Assembly (NCBI GenBank): GCA_029259935.1
Contig: JAJDEH010000286.1
Location: forward strand, 1-46,053
Source: Planctomycetota bacterium
Lineage (GTDB): Bacteria; Planctomycetota; Planctomycetia; Pirellulales; Pirellulaceae
Length of the DNA stretch: 46,053 nt
Direction of reading: 5' to 3'
Positions 500 to 39,530 of the stretch are shown here, piece after piece. The position numbers were made by a program, and so were the translations under genes. The notes beneath the pieces were generated by a model. The model did no database searches and was not told where the DNA came from. It saw only the letters and a list, made by a program, of their open reading frames with translations. Numbering within the stretch: the first letter of the stretch is position 1; each line of letters opens with the position of its first letter.

Positions 500-1639
500 C
501 TATCTTCCGGCGACATCCTTCGGGTTAACGACCAGACCGTCGCGCCGGGCACCTAGCCGCTGATAAAGCTCGTAATCGATATTGTGGAAGTAATACTGGA
601 TCGAGCCATCGCCGAGCAGGACGTTGGCACCCCGTCCGTTGTGGTTCGACCGGAAACCGTAAGCATAGGACTCGCCCCAGCTGGTGCACGTATGACCGAG
701 GAATTGCTTACCCGGATCGATCGACTCGTGGGGGTAGACTTGAGATTCGCCGACACCGCTGATCGGAGCGCCGATAGGCGAAGAGGTTCCAACGGTCTCG
801 CCTTGTCCTAGCGACCACCCTCGATCCCAGGCGTGGCTCCGCTCATCTGGCAGGATTTCGCCCGCGAAAATGGTGTTCGACAAGCCATCCGAGATTTCGC
901 CGTAAGTGGCACCGTAGTAAGTGTTGGAAAACGGACCTGAAACGTGACGTGGCTCCCAGCGGTCGCCGTGCCAGGCGTGTCCCGGATTTCGGTTGCCCGG
1001 CTGGTCGAAGAAATCGCCTTCCCACTGGAAAATACCTTGGTCTCGACAATTTCCCGCAGTGCGCTGGGCACCCCAACTGAAACCATAACAGTGCATTGCC
1101 CGGCCACCTTCGTCATAGGCACGGTTGTTACGATACTTGGGAGAATCGGACGACGGGCACCACAGGTTGGGAATGAACACGTGGTGGATCCACTGTTCTT
1201 TGCGCCCGCTGGTGACGGCCGTGTACTGGTTGTCGGGAATGAAGTCGTCGACCGCCTTGTGGCGAAATCCGAGTTGGTCTTCCCAGTTGTTGGTGGCTTT
1301 CTTCATCTTGTCGAACAATGCCTGGCGTTCCATGTAAGGCAGCAGCTTGACAAAGATTCCACCCTTGGTTCCATTTTGCCAGTGGCCTTGCCCGTTGGCG
1401 GTGGGAGCCCAGTTGTTGTCGCACAGCGAATTGAACGGCAACTGCTTGTAGGTGTCGTTGTAGTTGTGCAAGGCGACGCCAATTTGTCGCAAGTTGTTGG
1501 TGCATTGCGATCGTCGCGCGGCTTCACGAGCGGCCTGGACCGCTGGCAACAGCAGCGCGATCAAGATGCCGATGATCGCAATGACCACCAGCAATTCGAC
1601 CAGCGTAAACGCCGGCCTAAAACGAGGGGATGATTTCAT
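500..1639 (-). CDS. DUF1559 prepilin-like protein, copy 2
   Basis: A 379-residue exported protein. Residues 1-35 form a prepilin-type leader and hydrophobic helix ([20 protein letters not shown]), and the rest is the DUF1559 domain. Near the C-terminus there is a His-x10-Asp-Gly stretch ([15 protein letters not shown]), one residue longer than the H-X9-DG signature named for this family. Planctomycetes usually carry many DUF1559 paralogs; their function is unknown, and a pseudopilin or surface-fibre role is an inference. This copy differs most from its neighbours, for example in residues 45-60. It has its own promoter and terminator, so the array looks like separately transcribed units. The ATG at 1639 follows a GAGGACATCGGA Shine-Dalgarno region. 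Confidence 0.93.
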
Positions 1640-1728
1640 TCCGATGTCCTCTGAACGAGAAAGAAAAAAGGATGATGGGATAACTGCAAATTTTGTAGCA
1701 ATAAGACTACAAAAGCTCTAGCGAGTTG

Positions 1729-1812
1729 TAGTTATATAGCCACAAATGCAATTGATCAACCTTTTTGTCTAATATTTTATTCTTGCTCAGAAACCATGTA
1801 CTAACGAACACT
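1729..1812 (-). promoter_or_regulatory. Sigma70-type promoter and upstream element of DUF1559 copy 2
   Basis: Minus-strand -35 TTGATC (1759-1754), 17-bp spacer, -10 TATAAC (1736-1731). The shared 17-bp element is at 1729-1745. The upstream block GTACTAACGAACACT is at 1798-1812, again 38 bp from the -35. The leader contains a hairpin with an 8-bp stem, TTTTGTAG/CTACAAAA (about 1691-1714), not found in the other leaders. Confidence 0.75.
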
Positions 1813-1860
1813 TAAAATAGCGAATAGCCACGTCGTTCGATGAACGAAACGTGGCTATTC
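1811..1860 (-). terminator. Hairpin terminator after DUF1559 copy 3
   Basis: The stem GAATAGCCACGT (1822-1833) pairs with 1849-1860 and has the same inner stem and loop as the hairpin at 448-486. The following T tract on the minus strand is weaker (TATTTTAAG). It lies directly behind the stop codon of the gene at 1874-3013. Confidence 0.75.
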
Positions 1861-1873
1861 AGCTACTTTTTAA

Positions 1874-3013
1874 CTATCTTCCGGCGACGTCCTTCGGGTT
1901 AACGACGAGGCCGTCTCGTCGGGCACCGAGCCGCTGATACAACTCGTAGTCGATATTGTGGAAGTAGTACTGAATCGAGCCATCACCGAGCAGGACATTG
2001 GCACCCCGCCCGTTGTGATTCGACCGGAAACCGTAAGAGTACGCCCAGTCCCAGCGACTACACTGGTGACCCAGGACGGTCTTGCCCGGATCAATCGATT
2101 CGTGGGTGTAGACTTGTGACTCGCCGACTCCCATGATCGGAGCCCCAATGGGGGCGGACGTTCCAACGGTCTCACCTTGCCCTAGGGACCATCCTCGGTC
2201 CCAGGCGTGGTGCCGCTCGTCGGGGAGGATTTCGCCCGCGAAAATGGTGTTCGACAAGCCATCGGAGACTTCGCCGTACGTGGCACCATAGTAACTGTTG
2301 GAGAACGGCCCCGAAATATGGCGTGGCTCCCAGCGGTCCCCGTGATGGGCATGACCTGGATTGCGGTTCCCCGGTTGGTCGAAGAAATCGCCTTCCCATT
2401 GGAAAACGCCTTCGTCTCGACAGTTGCCCGCAGTTCGCTGGGCACCCCAACTGAAAGCGTAACAGTGCAATGCCCGGCCATTTTCTTCATAGGCACGGTT
2501 GTTGCGGAACTTGGGAGAATCGGACGAGGGACACCAGAGATTGGGGATGAACACGTGGTGAATCCACTGTTCTTTGCGCCCGCTGGTGACGGCCGTGTAC
2601 CGGCCGTCGGGAATGAAATCGTCCACCGCCTTGTGGCGGAAGCTTATTCGATCTTCCCAGTTGTTGGTGGCTTTCTTCATTTTGTCGAACAGTGCCTGAC
2701 GTTCCATGTAGGGCAACAGTTTGACGAAGATTCCCCCCTTGGAACCGTTTTGCCAATGACCCCCTCCGTTGGCTATGGGGTTCCAGTTGTTGTCGCACAA
2801 CGAGTTGAACGGCAACTGTTTGTAGGTGTCGTTGTAGTTGTGCAACGCGACACCAATCTGGCGCAGGTTGTTGGTGCATTGCGAGCGCCGCGCGGCCTCG
2901 CGGGCGGCTTGCACGGCTGGCAACAGCAGCGCGATTAAGATACCGATGATCGCAATGACCACCAGCAGTTCGACCAGCGTAAAAGCCGGTCTAAAACGAG
3001 GAGATGATTTCAT
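1874..3013 (-). CDS. DUF1559 prepilin-like protein, copy 3
   Basis: A 379-residue paralog with the same prepilin-type leader and DUF1559 body as its neighbours. The reading frame is open upstream to 3064, but the ATG at 3013 is the better start. It has the GAGGACCGTGGA ribosome-binding region shared with copy 1, gives the same N-terminus as the other copies, and puts the leader peptide at the extreme end. The C-terminal [20 protein letters not shown] block is shared with copies 2 and 4. Function unknown; probably exported and anchored by the N-terminal helix. Confidence 0.93.
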
Positions 3014-3090
3014 TCCACGGTCCTCTAAAGAAGAAAGGAAAATAAGAAAAAATAGACCGAACACCGCTCACCGTACAGGCGAGGGCTCCA

Positions 3091-3121
3091 TAGTTGTAAT
3101 ACTACAAGCAGAATCGATCAA
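3091..3121 (-). promoter_or_regulatory. Sigma70-type promoter of DUF1559 copy 3
   Basis: Minus-strand -35 TTGATC (3121-3116), 17-bp spacer, -10 TACAAC (3098-3093). The shared element at 3091-3107 contains a perfect TTGTA-N4-TACAA palindrome (3094-3107). The GTACTAA-type upstream block seen before copies 1, 2 and 4 is absent here. Confidence 0.7.
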
Positions 3122-3186
3122 GATTTTTCCAGCTTTTTTCCTTTTTCTTTAGAAAACAGTGCGCGTATGGGCATCTTGGATTTAAT

Positions 3187-3226
3187 GGATAGCCACGCCC
3201 TCCAATTCAAGAAAACGTGGCTATCC
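3187..3226 (-). terminator. Hairpin after DUF1559 copy 4
   Basis: An 11-bp stem, GGATAGCCACG (3187-3197) with its complement at 3216-3226. The stem core AGCCACG/CGTGGCT is the one used behind copies 2 and 3, but the loop is unrelated and there is no good T tract. It is a weaker terminator candidate. Confidence 0.6.
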
Positions 3227-3243
3227 GGCTATTTTCCGGCCAT

Positions 3244-4383
3244 TTACCTTCCCGCGACGTCCTTCGGGTTAACGACGAGGCCATCACGCCGGGCACCGAG
3301 CCGCTGATACAGTTCGTAGTCGATATTATGGAAGTAATACTGAATCGAGCCATCGCCCAGCAGGGTGTTGGCACCCCGTCCGTTGTGATTCGAGCGAAAT
3401 CCGTAAGAAAACGCCCAATCCCAGCGACTGCAACGGTGGCCCAAGACCATCTTGCCCGGATCAATCGATTCGTGGGCGTAGACTTGTGACTCGCCGACTC
3501 CCATGATCGGAGCCCCGATTGGGGCGGACGTTCCAACGGTCTCACCTTGCCCTAGGGACCATCCTCGGTCCCAGGCGTGATGCCGTTCGTCAGGCAAGAT
3601 TTCGCCCGCGAAAATGGTATTCGACAGGCCATCGGAGATCTCGCCGTACGTGGCACCATAGTAGCTATTTGAAAACGGCCCGGAAGTGTGACGCGGCTCC
3701 CAGCGGTCGCCGTGATGGGCATGACCTGGGTTTCGGTTCCCCGGTTGGTCGAAGAAATCGCCTTCCCATTGGAAAACGCCTTCATCTCGGCATCCGCCCG
3801 CGGTGCGCTGAGCACCCCAACTGAAGGCGTAGCAATGCAATGCCCGACCGGATTCTTGATAGGCACGATTGTTACGATACTTGGGAGAATCGGACGAGGG
3901 ACACCAGAGATTGGGGATGAACACGTGGTGAATCCACTGTTCTTTGCGCCCGCTGGTGACGGCCGTGTACTGGCCGTCGGGAATGAAATCGTCGACCGCC
4001 TTGTGGCGGAAGCTTATTCGATCTTCCCAGTTGTTGGTGGCTTTCTTCATCTTGTCGAACAGCGCCTGACGTTCCATGTAGGGCAACAGTTTGACAAAGA
4101 TTCCCCCCTTAGAACCGTTTTGCCAATGACCCCCTCCGTTGGCTATGGGGTTCCAGTTGTTATCGCACAGCGAGTTGAACGGCAACTGTTTGTAGGTGTC
4201 GTTGTAGTTGTGCAGGGCGACACCAATTTGGCGCAAGTTGTTGGTGCATTGCGAGCGCCGCGCGGCTTCGCGGGCGGCTTGCACGGCTGGCAACAGCAGC
4301 GCGATCAAGATGCCAATGATCGCAATGACCACCAGCAGTTCGACCAGCGTAAAAGCTGGCCTAAAACGGGGGGAAGATTTCAT
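3244..4383 (-). CDS. DUF1559 prepilin-like protein, copy 4
   Basis: A 379-residue paralog and the first transcribed unit of the array. It has the prepilin-type N-terminus and full DUF1559 body, and most of its sequence matches copy 3. One visible difference is a C-terminal NTLLGDGS where copies 2 and 3 have NVLLGDGS. The ATG at 4383 aligns exactly with the other copies. The upstream neighbour is the divergently transcribed threonine aldolase gene, so this copy's promoter region is not shared with a preceding paralog. It is therefore useful for telling promoter sequence from terminator sequence. Confidence 0.93.
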
Positions 4384-17934: not shown

Positions 17935-20652
17935 ATGCGTAGTTCTTGCGTCACACTCTCCACTTCGGCGATCCTCGTCGCTGTCATGTTCGGGTCTGCA
18001 TTCGCACAAGACGCCAAACCAGAGAAAAAACAAAGTGACGAGCAAGCGAAGAGCCCCAGTGAGGTGGCGGCAACGGCCACGACTTCGCCCAGCACCAGCA
18101 CCAAGTCCACGACGACCACGACCGCCAGTACGCCGAAACACGTCGCGCTGTTGAAGGGTGGAAAGACGCATACCGGACTGTTCACGGTGCATCACAAGGA
18201 AAGCAAGGTCTTTGCCGAACTGACCGCCGCGAACTACTCGAAACAGTACATCGTGCTGATTTCCATTGCCCGCGGAATCGGCCAGGGGAATCTGCTGGGT
18301 GGAATGAGTTGGGGATTCGGTGACGATTGGGTGTGGGAATTCCGAAAAATCGACAACCGCGTACTCATCATTCGCAAGAATGTCCGCTTCAAGGCAAAAC
18401 CGGGCAGCCGCGAATCGTACGCCGTAAAAAATGCTTACACCGATAGCGTGCTGTACAGCCTGCCGATCCTTACCAAGGGCCCCAAAGGGGGCGACCTGAT
18501 CGATCTGACGGGCGTCTTCATGAGCGACTTACCTCAAATTTCGCAATCGCTGCCTGGATTCTCTTTTTCGGCCAGCAAATCGCTGTGGGAATCAGTGAAG
18601 TCGTTCAGCAAGAACCTCGAACTGCAGGTGGCCGCCACCTATGCATCGAGCGGACGTTCCAACATCGAATCCGTTGCCGATTCGCGCGGTGTCACCGTCA
18701 ATGTTCACTATTCAATTAGCGCTCTGCCGGCAGCCAGCGCTTATCAGCCGCGATATGCCGACGATCGAGTGGGCTACTTCTTGACGGTTCGCAAAGACTA
18801 TTCAAAGAACAGCCAGCGCGATCAATTCTTGCGTTACATCAACCGCTGGAAGCTTGAAAAAGACGACCCCAGCGCGGCGGTTTCATCACCCAAGGAACCA
18901 ATCATTTTCTGGTTGGAAAAGACGATCCCCGCCAAGTACCGGCCGGCTATCCAGGCTGGAATCCTGGAATGGAACAAGGCCTATGAGAAGGCGGGATTCG
19001 CGAATGCCATCGAAGTTCGCACGCAACCGGTCGATGCCGACTGGGATCCCGAGGATATCAACTACAACACGTTCCGTTGGATCACCTCCAGTGCCGGCTT
19101 TGCCATGGGGCCCTCGCGAGTCAATCCCTACACGGGACAGATCCTCGATGCCGACATCATTTTTGACGCCGACTTCCTCACGTTTTGGAAAGAGGACTTC
19201 GATACGTTCACGACCGAGAGCATCTACGCCATGACGGGCGGTCCACTGGATCCTCAAGCGAACCCGATTGAGACGGCTTTCATGCGGGCACGACAGCAGC
19301 AACGTTGCCAACTCGGCTCGGGCATGGCTCGGCAATTCGCGTTTGGCACGACGGCGCTGATGGCCAACACGGACCCGAAACTGCTGGCCGCTGAAAAAGA
19401 GAAGTTCATTATGCAGGGCCTGAAGGAAGTGGCGATGCACGAAGTGGGGCACACGTTGGGATTGCGCCACAACTTCAAGGCCAGCACTTGGCGCAGCCTG
19501 AAGCAAGTCAACGATCCTAACGTCAACGGCGACAGCGTCGCTTCCGTCATGGACTATACGCCGGCCAATATCGTTCCCAAGGAGTGGAAGCAGGGTGATT
19601 ATTTTCCCAGGACGCTGGGACCCTATGATTATTGGGCGATTGAGTATGGATATAAGACGCTTTCGGGCGGCACGACCGGCGAGGTCAAGGAACTGAAGAA
19701 GATCGCCTCGCGCAGCGGCGAACCCGGATTGGCTTATGCCACCGACGAAGACACCGTTTCGCGCGATCCCGATCCGCTCAACAATCGTTTCGATCATGGC
19801 AGCGACGCGCTGGAATACGCCAAAACCCGAGCCCAAATCGTGCAGGAACTGATGCCGGGGCTCGTTGATCGCATGACCGAAGAGGGCGACGATTATGTCC
19901 AAGCCCGCCGCGCCTTCAACACGCTGCTGTCTCAGCAGGGCCAAGCGATGTACTTTGCCTCGCGCTATGTCGGCGGTCTGTATACGCATCGCAATCACAA
20001 GGGCGACAAGAATGGCAAGCCGCCGATCGAAGTCATCGCGCCGGAAAAACAGCGTGAAGCGCTGAAGCTGCTTTCTGAGGGCGTGTTTAACGACAAGCCA
20101 TTTCAGTTTCCACCAGCAACTTACAATTTCCTCGGCCCATCGCGCTGGCGACACTGGGGCACTTCGCCCACCAGCCGCAAGGATTTTCCGGTTCACGAAT
20201 ATATCTCCATGTGGCAATCGCGCATCTTGGACCAATTGCTGGCTCCGGTCACGTTGGAGCGTATTCACGATACGGAATTGAAGATTCCCGCCGGCGAGGA
20301 TGCCTTTACCACCGCGGAACTGATCGAAGGATTGACCGCCGCGATCTATGCCGAAATTGGCGCATTGAAAGACGGCAAGTATTCCAATCGCCAACCGGCC
20401 ATCTCCAGTTTGCGCCGAAATCTGCAACGGATCTTTCTGCGCGAACTATCCAGCTTGGCGATGGGACGCACTTCGGCTCCGGATGATTGCCAAACGATCG
20501 CGTTCGCCGAGCTAATGAAACTGCAAGGCCGAATCAAAAAAGCATTGAAAGGCAAAGCGGACTTGGATAGTTATTCGCGGGCCCACCTTCAAGAAACGTC
20601 CAGCCGTATCAAGAAGGTATTGGAAGCGGATCTCTCGCTCGCGCGTCCTTAA
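17935..20652 (+). CDS. Secreted zinc metalloprotease (metzincin-like, DUF5117/DUF4953 type)
   Basis: A 905-residue exported protein. The signal peptide (residues 1-25, ending SAFA-QD) is followed by a low-complexity Thr/Ser-rich linker (about 40-65). The N-terminal half carries a DUF5117-like region, and the catalytic domain has H502-E-V-G-H-T-L-G-L-R-H, the HExxHxxGxxH zinc site. A Met-turn-like SVMDYTPANI follows about 35 residues later, so the active site looks complete. Such proteins are large periplasmic or outer-membrane-associated proteases of unknown substrate. AGGAA lies about 6 nt before the ATG. No neighbour on the same strand is close enough to be an obvious partner. Confidence 0.9.
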   Translation: MRSSCVTLSTSAILVAVMFGSAFAQDAKPEKKQSDEQAKSPSEVAATATTSPSTSTKSTTTTTASTPKHVALLKGGKTHTGLFTVHHKESKVFAELTAANYSKQYIVLISIARGIGQGNLLGGMSWGFGDDWVWEFRKIDNRVLIIRKNVRFKAKPGSRESYAVKNAYTDSVLYSLPILTKGPKGGDLIDLTGVFMSDLPQISQSLPGFSFSASKSLWESVKSFSKNLELQVAATYASSGRSNIESVADSRGVTVNVHYSISALPAASAYQPRYADDRVGYFLTVRKDYSKNSQRDQFLRYINRWKLEKDDPSAAVSSPKEPIIFWLEKTIPAKYRPAIQAGILEWNKAYEKAGFANAIEVRTQPVDADWDPEDINYNTFRWITSSAGFAMGPSRVNPYTGQILDADIIFDADFLTFWKEDFDTFTTESIYAMTGGPLDPQANPIETAFMRARQQQRCQLGSGMARQFAFGTTALMANTDPKLLAAEKEKFIMQGLKEVAMHEVGHTLGLRHNFKASTWRSLKQVNDPNVNGDSVASVMDYTPANIVPKEWKQGDYFPRTLGPYDYWAIEYGYKTLSGGTTGEVKELKKIASRSGEPGLAYATDEDTVSRDPDPLNNRFDHGSDALEYAKTRAQIVQELMPGLVDRMTEEGDDYVQARRAFNTLLSQQGQAMYFASRYVGGLYTHRNHKGDKNGKPPIEVIAPEKQREALKLLSEGVFNDKPFQFPPATYNFLGPSRWRHWGTSPTSRKDFPVHEYISMWQSRILDQLLAPVTLERIHDTELKIPAGEDAFTTAELIEGLTAAIYAEIGALKDGKYSNRQPAISSLRRNLQRIFLRELSSLAMGRTSAPDDCQTIAFAELMKLQGRIKKALKGKADLDSYSRAHLQETSSRIKKVLEADLSLARP

Positions 20653-38282: not shown

Positions 38283-39455
38283 TTACTTCGCGTCCATCAG
38301 CTTGTAGAGGACGAAGGGGGCGACGTCCATGGACGGCCGGAAGCCTGACGGCCCGCGACCGCCCTGGTAGGTAATTTTTCCGGCCGCGTCGATAATGTAA
38401 AGCCGGTCCGGCTCGCCACGATAGGCCTTGTTCACATGGTCATCCATCGTGTCCACCAGAACTGGCACCGACAGTTCGACCTGCTCGGCGAACTGGCTGG
38501 CCACCCGTCGCCGCTCCTCCAGCGTCTTGTGCTGCGCTACATCCTTGAATTCGCGAGCATATTCTTCCAGCGGGTGCCGCTCGCGGGTATAGATGGTGTA
38601 GAAGTGCGCCTGGTCTTTGTAGGTCTCGTAGAGCTTCTCGATCGAACCGACCGAGCGGACAAACGGCGGTCACGTACAACTGCCGAAGATCAACACCACC
38701 GGCTTGCCCCTCAGTTCCGAGAGCTTCACCGTGGTCTCGCCTTGCGTGTCCTGAAGAGTGAAGTCGGGGGCTGCGTCTCCCGCCCGTACTTCGCGGGGCC
38801 TCCTGGATCGCTGCTTCGGTCGCGTGGATTCCTGAGTCGGAGCGGGCAATTCCGCAAAGGTTCCCTCCGTGTGTTTATAGAGCAGGAACGGAATGGCGGA
38901 GAGCGCCGGCCCGAATCCGTCTAGAGTGTAGTTCGACTTGAGCAGCACGTTACCGTGCGCGTCGATGACGTAGATCCGGTCCGGCCAGCCAGCGTAGAGG
39001 TTGTCGGTTTGGTCGTCCTCGGTATCCATCAGGACCGGAGCCAACAGCCCGACCCGTTTGGCAAATGCGCTAGCCACCTGCCGCCGCTCTTCGAATGTCT
39101 TCGGAGCCGGCGCGTCGTCATCATCTTTCTTGCCGGGGTTTTCGCGAACATAGACCACGTAGACATGGGCCGCATCTTCATAGGCTGTGTACAGCTTGTT
39201 GATCGCGGCGACCGATTCGACGAAACGAGACGAGGTCGAGCTGCCAAAGATCAGTACGACCGGTTTCCCTTTCAATTCGGCAAGCTGAACCGTCTGCGTG
39301 CCGTGCGCGTCCCGCAACGTGAAATCAATAGCCGCGTCACCTGCCTTGAGTTTACCGGCGCGGCGCTGTTGGGCTTCTACGGAGATAGGCACGGTCATGA
39401 GGATCAGCAGAAACAGAAGCAAGAGCCGCCGAGTTGGCGTAGCGGGCTGAAACAT
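38283..39455 (-). CDS. Deiodinase-like selenoprotein candidate (in-frame TGA = Sec262)
   Basis: Read through the TGA at 38672-38670, this is a 390-residue exported protein with two tandem thioredoxin-like deiodinase domains. The signal peptide is about 1-28. Domain 1 (about 37-195) has G-S-S-T-S-S at 71-76. Domain 2 (about 225-388) has G258-S-C-T-U262-P-P-F, the deiodinase active-site context, followed by VDTMDDHVNKAYRGEPDRLY and GGRGPSGF, which match the C-terminal half of iodothyronine deiodinases. The frame after TGA is open for 128 codons to a TAA, in the same phase. AGGAG lies 7 nt before the ATG. A SECIS-like hairpin follows the TGA. If the TGA is read as stop, a 261-residue protein ends inside domain 2. 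Selenocysteine insertion is inferred, not shown; the substrate is unknown and need not be an iodothyronine. Confidence 0.85.
38637..38655 (-). promoter_or_regulatory. Candidate bacterial SECIS element
   Basis: On the mRNA an 8-bp stem CUCGGUCG/CGAUCGAG (one G-U pair) carries the apical loop GUU. The loop starts 22 nt after the UGA and its first base is G, matching the published general rules for bacterial SECIS elements (loop about 16-37 nt after UGA, G in the first two loop bases). The loop is at the short end of the usual range. Folding was done by eye. Confidence 0.6.
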
Positions 39456-39530
39456 GGAGCTTCTCCTGTGTACAAGCGTCGTGGAAACCTGAATCGCCGG
39501 AACTTCTTACAGGCTGTCGGAATGCGAATA

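Follow-up and report, generated by a model that had tools for sequence, protein, structure and literature searches.

Reading frame and domain organization

The window analysed here is the whole stretch of 46,053 nucleotides, and the gene at 38283..39455 lies on its minus strand, as do all features of it given below. By frame translation and the PF00837 profile, it encodes a putative tandem deiodinase-family selenoprotein, in which selenocysteine (Sec) would be specified by UGA. The frame comprises 390 sense codons counting UGA codon 262, from an ATG at 39455 to a TAA at 38285-38283, and its single in-frame stop is the UGA at 38672-38670. Translation confirms what a first-pass annotation had read from the letters, namely one frame broken only by this TGA, here of 390 residues, and the context GSCT-TGA-PPF, which in the second domain of the protein reads GSCT-Sec262-PPF. 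The AGGAG at 39463..39467, 7 nt 5′ of the ATG, is by its sequence a likely ribosome-binding site. Residues 1-28 (39372..39455) comprise, as judged by eye, a charged start, a long hydrophobic stretch and VEA at the end, a helix is modelled at residues 7-35, and the N-terminus of the 390-residue protein is likely to be an export signal.

Residues 35-194 align with residues 222-385 at 51% identity and represent two copies of one domain, with a complete deiodinase-family domain already present 5′ of the UGA. Domain 1 (residues 35-194; 38874..39353) and domain 2 (residues 222-385; 38301..38792), defined by the DIO3 match and by domain and family alignments, are joined by a linker (residues 195-221; 38793..38873) that is bounded by the domain alignment and is the lowest-confidence part of the structure model. 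The read-through protein scores 137.9 bits against PF00837 (cut-off 27) in two stretches, of which the best, residues 221-375, spans the UGA. The whole protein also passes NCBIfam NF038285 'deiodinase family protein' (282.5 bits, cut-off 250), whereas the domains taken singly stay below that cut-off (109.9 and 178.2 bits). Mouse DIO3 (4tr3) matches domain 2, with Cys written for Sec, at 81.8 bits and domain 1 at 30.3 bits. An AlphaFold2 model from 36 sequences (mean pLDDT 80.9) places most of domain 2 above 90 and domain 1 lower, and predicts two folded domains in one chain whose relative packing is uncertain (pTM 0.65). The best Foldseek matches in the PDB are DIO3 (4tr3, E 6.5e-12) and DIO2 (9h48, 5.5e-11), followed by ResA-type thiol oxidoreductases. 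The earlier description of the product as deiodinase-like holds in that the protein belongs to PF00837, with 'deiodinase' serving as a family name only; the tandem architecture had escaped that description.

The two domains differ at the residues expected to carry catalysis. By translation and domain alignment, the Sec/Cys position of domain 1 is occupied by Ser75 (codon at 39231..39233) in the context GSST-Ser-SRF, and this domain has no His at the equivalent of His294 of domain 2. Domain 2 has the predicted Sec262 and keeps Tyr289, Glu292, His294, His309 and Arg367, the last five of which in the DIO3 alignment fall at the proton-relay residues of the DIO enzymes and at the arginine of the GGRGP stretch, the placing of single residues being our own. 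His294 (codon at 38574..38576) takes the place of DIO3 His202 and DIO2 His162 in the DIO3 and family alignments, and the roles of these and other DIO residues are described in the accessible text of PMC11592359. The family alignment holds 227 sequences, with domains shorter than 130 residues omitted, a few duplicate loci retained and most UGA loci selected by the PPF pattern. Within it, the His294 equivalent is invariant (144/144 UGA domains and 78/78 Cys domains), while those of His309 (19/144 and 0/78) and Arg367 (32/144 and 42/78) are not, and by these frequencies only the first is a mark of the family. The catalytic Sec/Cys and the conserved His that follows it are both in domain 2 and neither is in domain 1, and we predict that domain 1 is catalytically inactive and domain 2 active. 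The sole Cys of the protein is Cys260, two residues before Sec. Separately, in the deiodinase-family proteins P0064 and P0081 a hydrophobic segment of membrane-like character is inserted after the HP motif and before the next helix.

Decoding of UGA codon 262

The UGA at 38670..38672 is predicted to encode Sec on the basis of the frame, the codons of relatives, a downstream hairpin and a link to tRNA-Sec. It is very unlikely that this codon is a real stop, marking either a decayed gene or a 261-residue product that comprises domain 1 and breaks off early in domain 2. Such a reading draws on the database copy of the protein, P0002, which has 261 residues and ends at GSCT, and on the termination at UGA of 9 among 28 genes that we picked from the window (11 end at TAG and 8 at TAA). 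Against it, the 128 codons 3′ of the UGA resemble coding sequence, since their GC content by codon position (0.66/0.38/0.80) is like that of the 5′ part (0.63/0.44/0.72), and the residues of the family persist there, with the GGRGP stretch aligning with DIO, in agreement with the first-pass annotation, which had noted a deiodinase signature after the TGA. The related protein P0003 ends at the same place, a bSECIS-like hairpin lies past the UGA, and in the relatives scored the site is occupied by UGA or a Cys codon, never by TAA or TAG. The decayed gene, the truncated product and a changed code were rejected on the codons of relatives, coding composition, the hairpin and the normal UGA stops.

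The codons of relatives were collected in two ways. An exact pattern, F-G-S-x-T-UGA-P-P-F, is found in at least 117 stretches of genome contigs; by an HMM built from database matches, 113 of the 117 matched stretches are deiodinase-family frames, and 103 of these 113 have at least 100 open codons past the UGA. The UGA form is thus common, and the titles of the contigs name several phyla (Acidobacteria, Planctomycetota, Chloroflexi, Verrucomicrobia, Proteobacteria and others). The remaining stretches, L060, L063, L110 and L120, are chance matches to the pattern and were rejected as deiodinases by the HMM, and the pattern has 4 matches in viral contigs, none of them a convincing deiodinase frame. 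As the 112 sites of L005-L121 were selected for TGA, they are uninformative on TAA and TAG. For the second collection, the window protein served as query against 294 genomes from the phylum of G040. A match at E <= 0.001, in many cases a weak one, occurs in 198 of these; among the 104 matches listed with E <= 1e-20, 93 have exactly one internal TGA and 11 have none, as counted by eye.

At the 82 sites scored in loci L122-L224 the codon is TGA in 41, TGC in 28 and TGT in 13, with no TAA or TAG, under a regular expression limited there to stop codons and to the residues Cys, Trp, Ser and Ala. Four deiodinase loci were missed by this expression, of which L167 has a stop at the site (TGA by the genome search) and L202, L218 and L224 have Cys; the other 17 loci in which no site was scored are those of the marker or of sel genes. 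The 41:41 split between TGA and Cys is not a frequency, because L196-L224 were picked deliberately from rows without an in-frame stop, and the informative point is the absence of TAA and TAG at the site rather than the ratio. L194-L195 were picked for an in-frame TAG, which lies elsewhere in loci with Cys at the site, and among the listed matches to P0001 a TAG occurs inside those of G477 and G382, both with Cys at the site, and in one weak row of G025. The UGA accordingly sits at the catalytic Sec/Cys column of the family, where relatives have Cys, and the alignment of PF00837 homologs that had been proposed as a check on residue 262 returns TGA or Cys codons in the relatives scored and no TAA or TAG, an outcome that favours the Sec reading. 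A subgroup of the pattern loci (L016, L017, L028, L030, L034, L058, L068, L071, L084, L088, L090, L092 and L099) reads FGC(L/M)T-UGA-PPF, mostly with 170-395 open codons past the UGA and with titles from Planctomycetes and Verrucomicrobia, and may represent a larger Sec protein with an extra C-terminal part.

Reading of the UGA as some other amino acid, through a changed code or tRNA suppression, is improbable in the extreme. In one database relative, P0034, the Sec/Cys site is indeed occupied by Trp (GSYTWPPF), which probably reflects a UGA rendered as Trp under another code. Against this, Cys and not Trp is the alternative residue in relatives, the hairpin and the link to tRNA-Sec point to Sec, and 9 of the 28 window genes end normally at UGA, which argues against a change of code. 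Of 14 candidates for UGA read-through lying outside other genes of the window, the present gene is the only one with a motif recognised by eye.

The hairpin past the UGA, CUCGGUCG-GUU-CGAUCGAG (38637..38655), was identified by folding and by a restricted hairpin test. It has 8 pairs and an energy of -9.2 kcal/mol, and its loop starts 22 nt past the UGA with G first, so that a hairpin of the bSECIS type, with a small apical loop containing G, lies just past the UGA by our test. This test, which is our own and not bSECISearch, asks for a loop of 3-14 nt with G among its first two bases, at least 4 unbroken pairs and a position of the loop 16-37 nt past the UGA, ranges that we take to be those of bSECIS elements. 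Taken alone, the folding energy of 48 to 60 nt does not set the site apart (p 0.06 to 0.21, depending on length); among 373 codon positions, the 54-nt stretch that starts at the UGA holds rank 196. In the restricted test, devised after the hairpin of the window had been seen and after the energy of the whole region had proved non-significant, 0.69% of 10,000 synonymous versions are as stable as -9.2 kcal/mol (p = 0.007). Among 5989 other codons from eight genes of the window, 2.4% are followed at that distance by a hairpin as good, and the equivalent site of domain 1 has a hairpin energy of -1.6. The contrast between UGA genes and Cys genes is plain: in 150 distinct UGA genes, that of the window among them, the mean is -7.9 as opposed to -2.8 in synonymous versions of the same genes (Wilcoxon 1e-25), whereas 41 Cys genes have a mean of -2.5 against -2.0 (p 0.35), and the difference between the two groups has p 3e-13, these family p-values being too small because related genes are not independent.

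The machinery for Sec was sought in related genomes, ranked by the 905-aa DUF5117/DUF4953 protein of the window (17935-20652). This marker finds its best matches in the family of G168, and the nearest genome, G474, contains selA, selB and tRNA-Sec. The window organism is probably a planctomycete, as suggested by the titles of loci such as L075 and by Pfam domains of planctomycete type. In the 12 top marker genomes (G474, G403, G354, G413, G436, G362, G352, G429, G405, G383, G341 and G342), selA is above the cut-off in 11, while selB above its cut-off and tRNA-Sec with at least 57 bits each occur in 10; G341 alone passes none of the three tests, with selA at 252.2 bits against a cut-off of 267.9. 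The more distant G168 and G250 are without selB and tRNA-Sec. The window organism would thus be expected to possess the machinery by relation to genomes of which the nearest is only 68% identical in the marker. The Rfam model of tRNA-Sec also matches other tRNAs, probably tRNA-Ser, and at E <= 0.001 it matches 50 of 50 genomes, with 5 of 14 control genomes above the gathering score. With a cut-off of 57 bits, chosen once the scores were seen, tRNA-Sec is present in 39 of 47 UGA-deiodinase genomes, which represent 47 of the 113 frames and were chosen by us, and in none of 3 genomes with chance matches.

A sample of 119 of the 241 genomes in the family of G168 gives the same association. At the same cut-off, 39 of the 42 genomes that carry a UGA deiodinase (E <= 1e-10) have tRNA-Sec. 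The proportion is 4 of 14 where the only deiodinase is uninterrupted, Cys at the site having been checked in 13 of these (all but G358), and 22 of 63 where neither form occurs (Fisher tests of the UGA genomes give 6e-6 against the 14 and 9e-11 against all 77 others). The four Cys-only genomes with tRNA-Sec all have selA and selB; in nine tested Cys-only genomes without it, selB never exceeds the cut-off and a selA match occurs in one, G355. Three genomes have a UGA deiodinase without tRNA-Sec, of which G352 and G343 have selA and selB and G437 has neither. The G437 gene (C53:82238-82729), with no tRNA-Sec at 57 bits and no selA or selB above the cut-off, reflects either an incomplete genome or a real exception. 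The four genomes with full Sec machinery and a Cys deiodinase match (G369, G434, G431 and G452) suggest exchange of Sec for Cys, or of Cys for Sec, within one family. The recoding of the TGA as Sec262, put forward in the first-pass annotation, is therefore supported by the position in the catalytic column, relatives without TAA or TAG, the hairpin, the end of P0003 and the Sec machinery of the nearest genomes.

Tandem proteins and the role of domain 1

The protein P0003 (251 aa) is 66% identical to the window protein over 239 residues and, read as protein only, its second domain ends exactly at GSCT, at the same codon as the UGA of the window. Its domain 1 is the same as that of the window, with the same losses (no Sec/Cys, no His), and the two group in a FastTree phylogeny with support of 0.999. 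The node that unites both with domain 2 of the window has support of only 0.383, and the next neighbour is a single-domain Cys protein, P0004 (0.778); given these supports, one duplication before the split of the window protein and P0003 is likely but not proven. A third tandem, P0023, has 455 residues, and its halves group together elsewhere in the tree (0.976). Like the window protein, it has two deiodinase-family domains, one of them without the catalytic residue and the His, but its live half comes first and uses Cys: domain 1 has Cys and His, and domain 2 has Ser and Gln at those places. Tandem relatives are absent from the matches listed for 241 genomes and from the pattern loci.

A bacterial family of Sec deiodinase-like proteins has been known since 2005, when Sargasso Sea sequences were reported to include Sec and Cys members whose SECIS elements are bacterial, with four Sec sequences tabled in the available text of PMC1088965; a deiodinase-like family with 22 entries is listed in a table of the GOS paper (PMC2398784). 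As far as the accessible parts of these papers describe them, those proteins resemble that of the window in PF00837 membership, Sec at the same site and a bacterial SECIS past the UGA, but no tandem is described, and the window adds a catalytically empty domain before the Sec domain. A deiodinase-like selenoprotein fused to EF-hands, described in accessible sections of PMC9402790, is likewise joined to another domain, whereas the partner in the window is a second deiodinase domain. Sec machinery and selenoproteins are reported for Planctomycetes in PMC4807772, in whose main text 'deiodinase' is absent, and a 2026 review lists the family, the functions of the group being said in its available text to remain largely open (PMC13188914). 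In the open-licence literature, we found no report of tandem deiodinase selenoproteins or of Acidobacteria deiodinase selenoproteins, and the combination of a dead and a Sec domain appears new. The Sec form is probably under-seen, as protein collections end such genes at the UGA (P0002 and P0003 at GSCT).

Compared with animal DIO2 and DIO3 (9h48, 4tr3), the window protein aligns in fold, Sec region, His294, His309 and the GGRGP stretch, but has two domains per chain, a predicted export signal, a putative bacterial in-frame SECIS in its gene and no known iodothyronine substrate. As the protein is bacterial, thyroid hormone is an unlikely substrate. We consider it probable, with good confidence, that the gene encodes an exported (predicted) two-domain deiodinase-family protein in which the UGA is very likely Sec, domain 2 would be a working enzyme and domain 1 a dead partner. 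The hairpin would recruit SelB with Sec-tRNA for insertion of Sec at codon 262, and outside the cytoplasm the protein may then be a reductase that works through its selenol. This group would attack a peroxide, disulfide or halogenated aromatic substrate and could be regenerated by thiols or through Cys260.

Animal deiodinases are homodimers, and on this ground domain 1 might stand in for the second subunit, a speculative proposal that we rate as rather doubtful. The wider reading, which we put forward tentatively, is a covalent pseudo-dimer with a dead copy fused to a Sec copy, in which the live/dead design would have arisen at least twice, with Sec in the window protein and P0003 and with Cys, in reversed order, in P0023. 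Nearly even in its prospects is the alternative that Sec is inserted but domain 1 binds a substrate or partner or is a spacer, the enzyme being an ordinary selenol peroxidase or disulfide reductase. The fold is also near ResA-type thiol oxidoreductases and the packing of the two domains is unsettled in the model, both in favour of this alternative, as is a redox role proposed for the bacterial family in the accessible text of PMC1088965, where a function other than iodothyronine deiodination is argued. Set against a binding or spacer role are the good conservation of domain 1 between the window protein and P0003, with the same losses, and the presence of one live and one dead half, in reversed order, in the separate tandem P0023, which suggest that the pairing as such has a function. 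As a fusion made by nature in which one half is dead, the tandem lends itself to asking directly why deiodinases form dimers, and it may also point to the substrates that the bacterial enzymes reduce, a question standing since 2005.

Genomic surroundings

The neighbouring genes give no functional hint: at 1e-8, none of 224 loci matches those for DUF3500, TPR-phosphoesterase, MarR and amidohydrolase proteins, and 5 of the 224 match the neighbouring sulfatase weakly. Rfam at gathering scores and ARAGORN found nothing in the window. At the other end of the window, the minus-strand region 500-4383 holds a local triplication, in which three genes lie side by side, differ very little and encode proteins that start with a pilin-like segment, presumably of the DUF1559 type.
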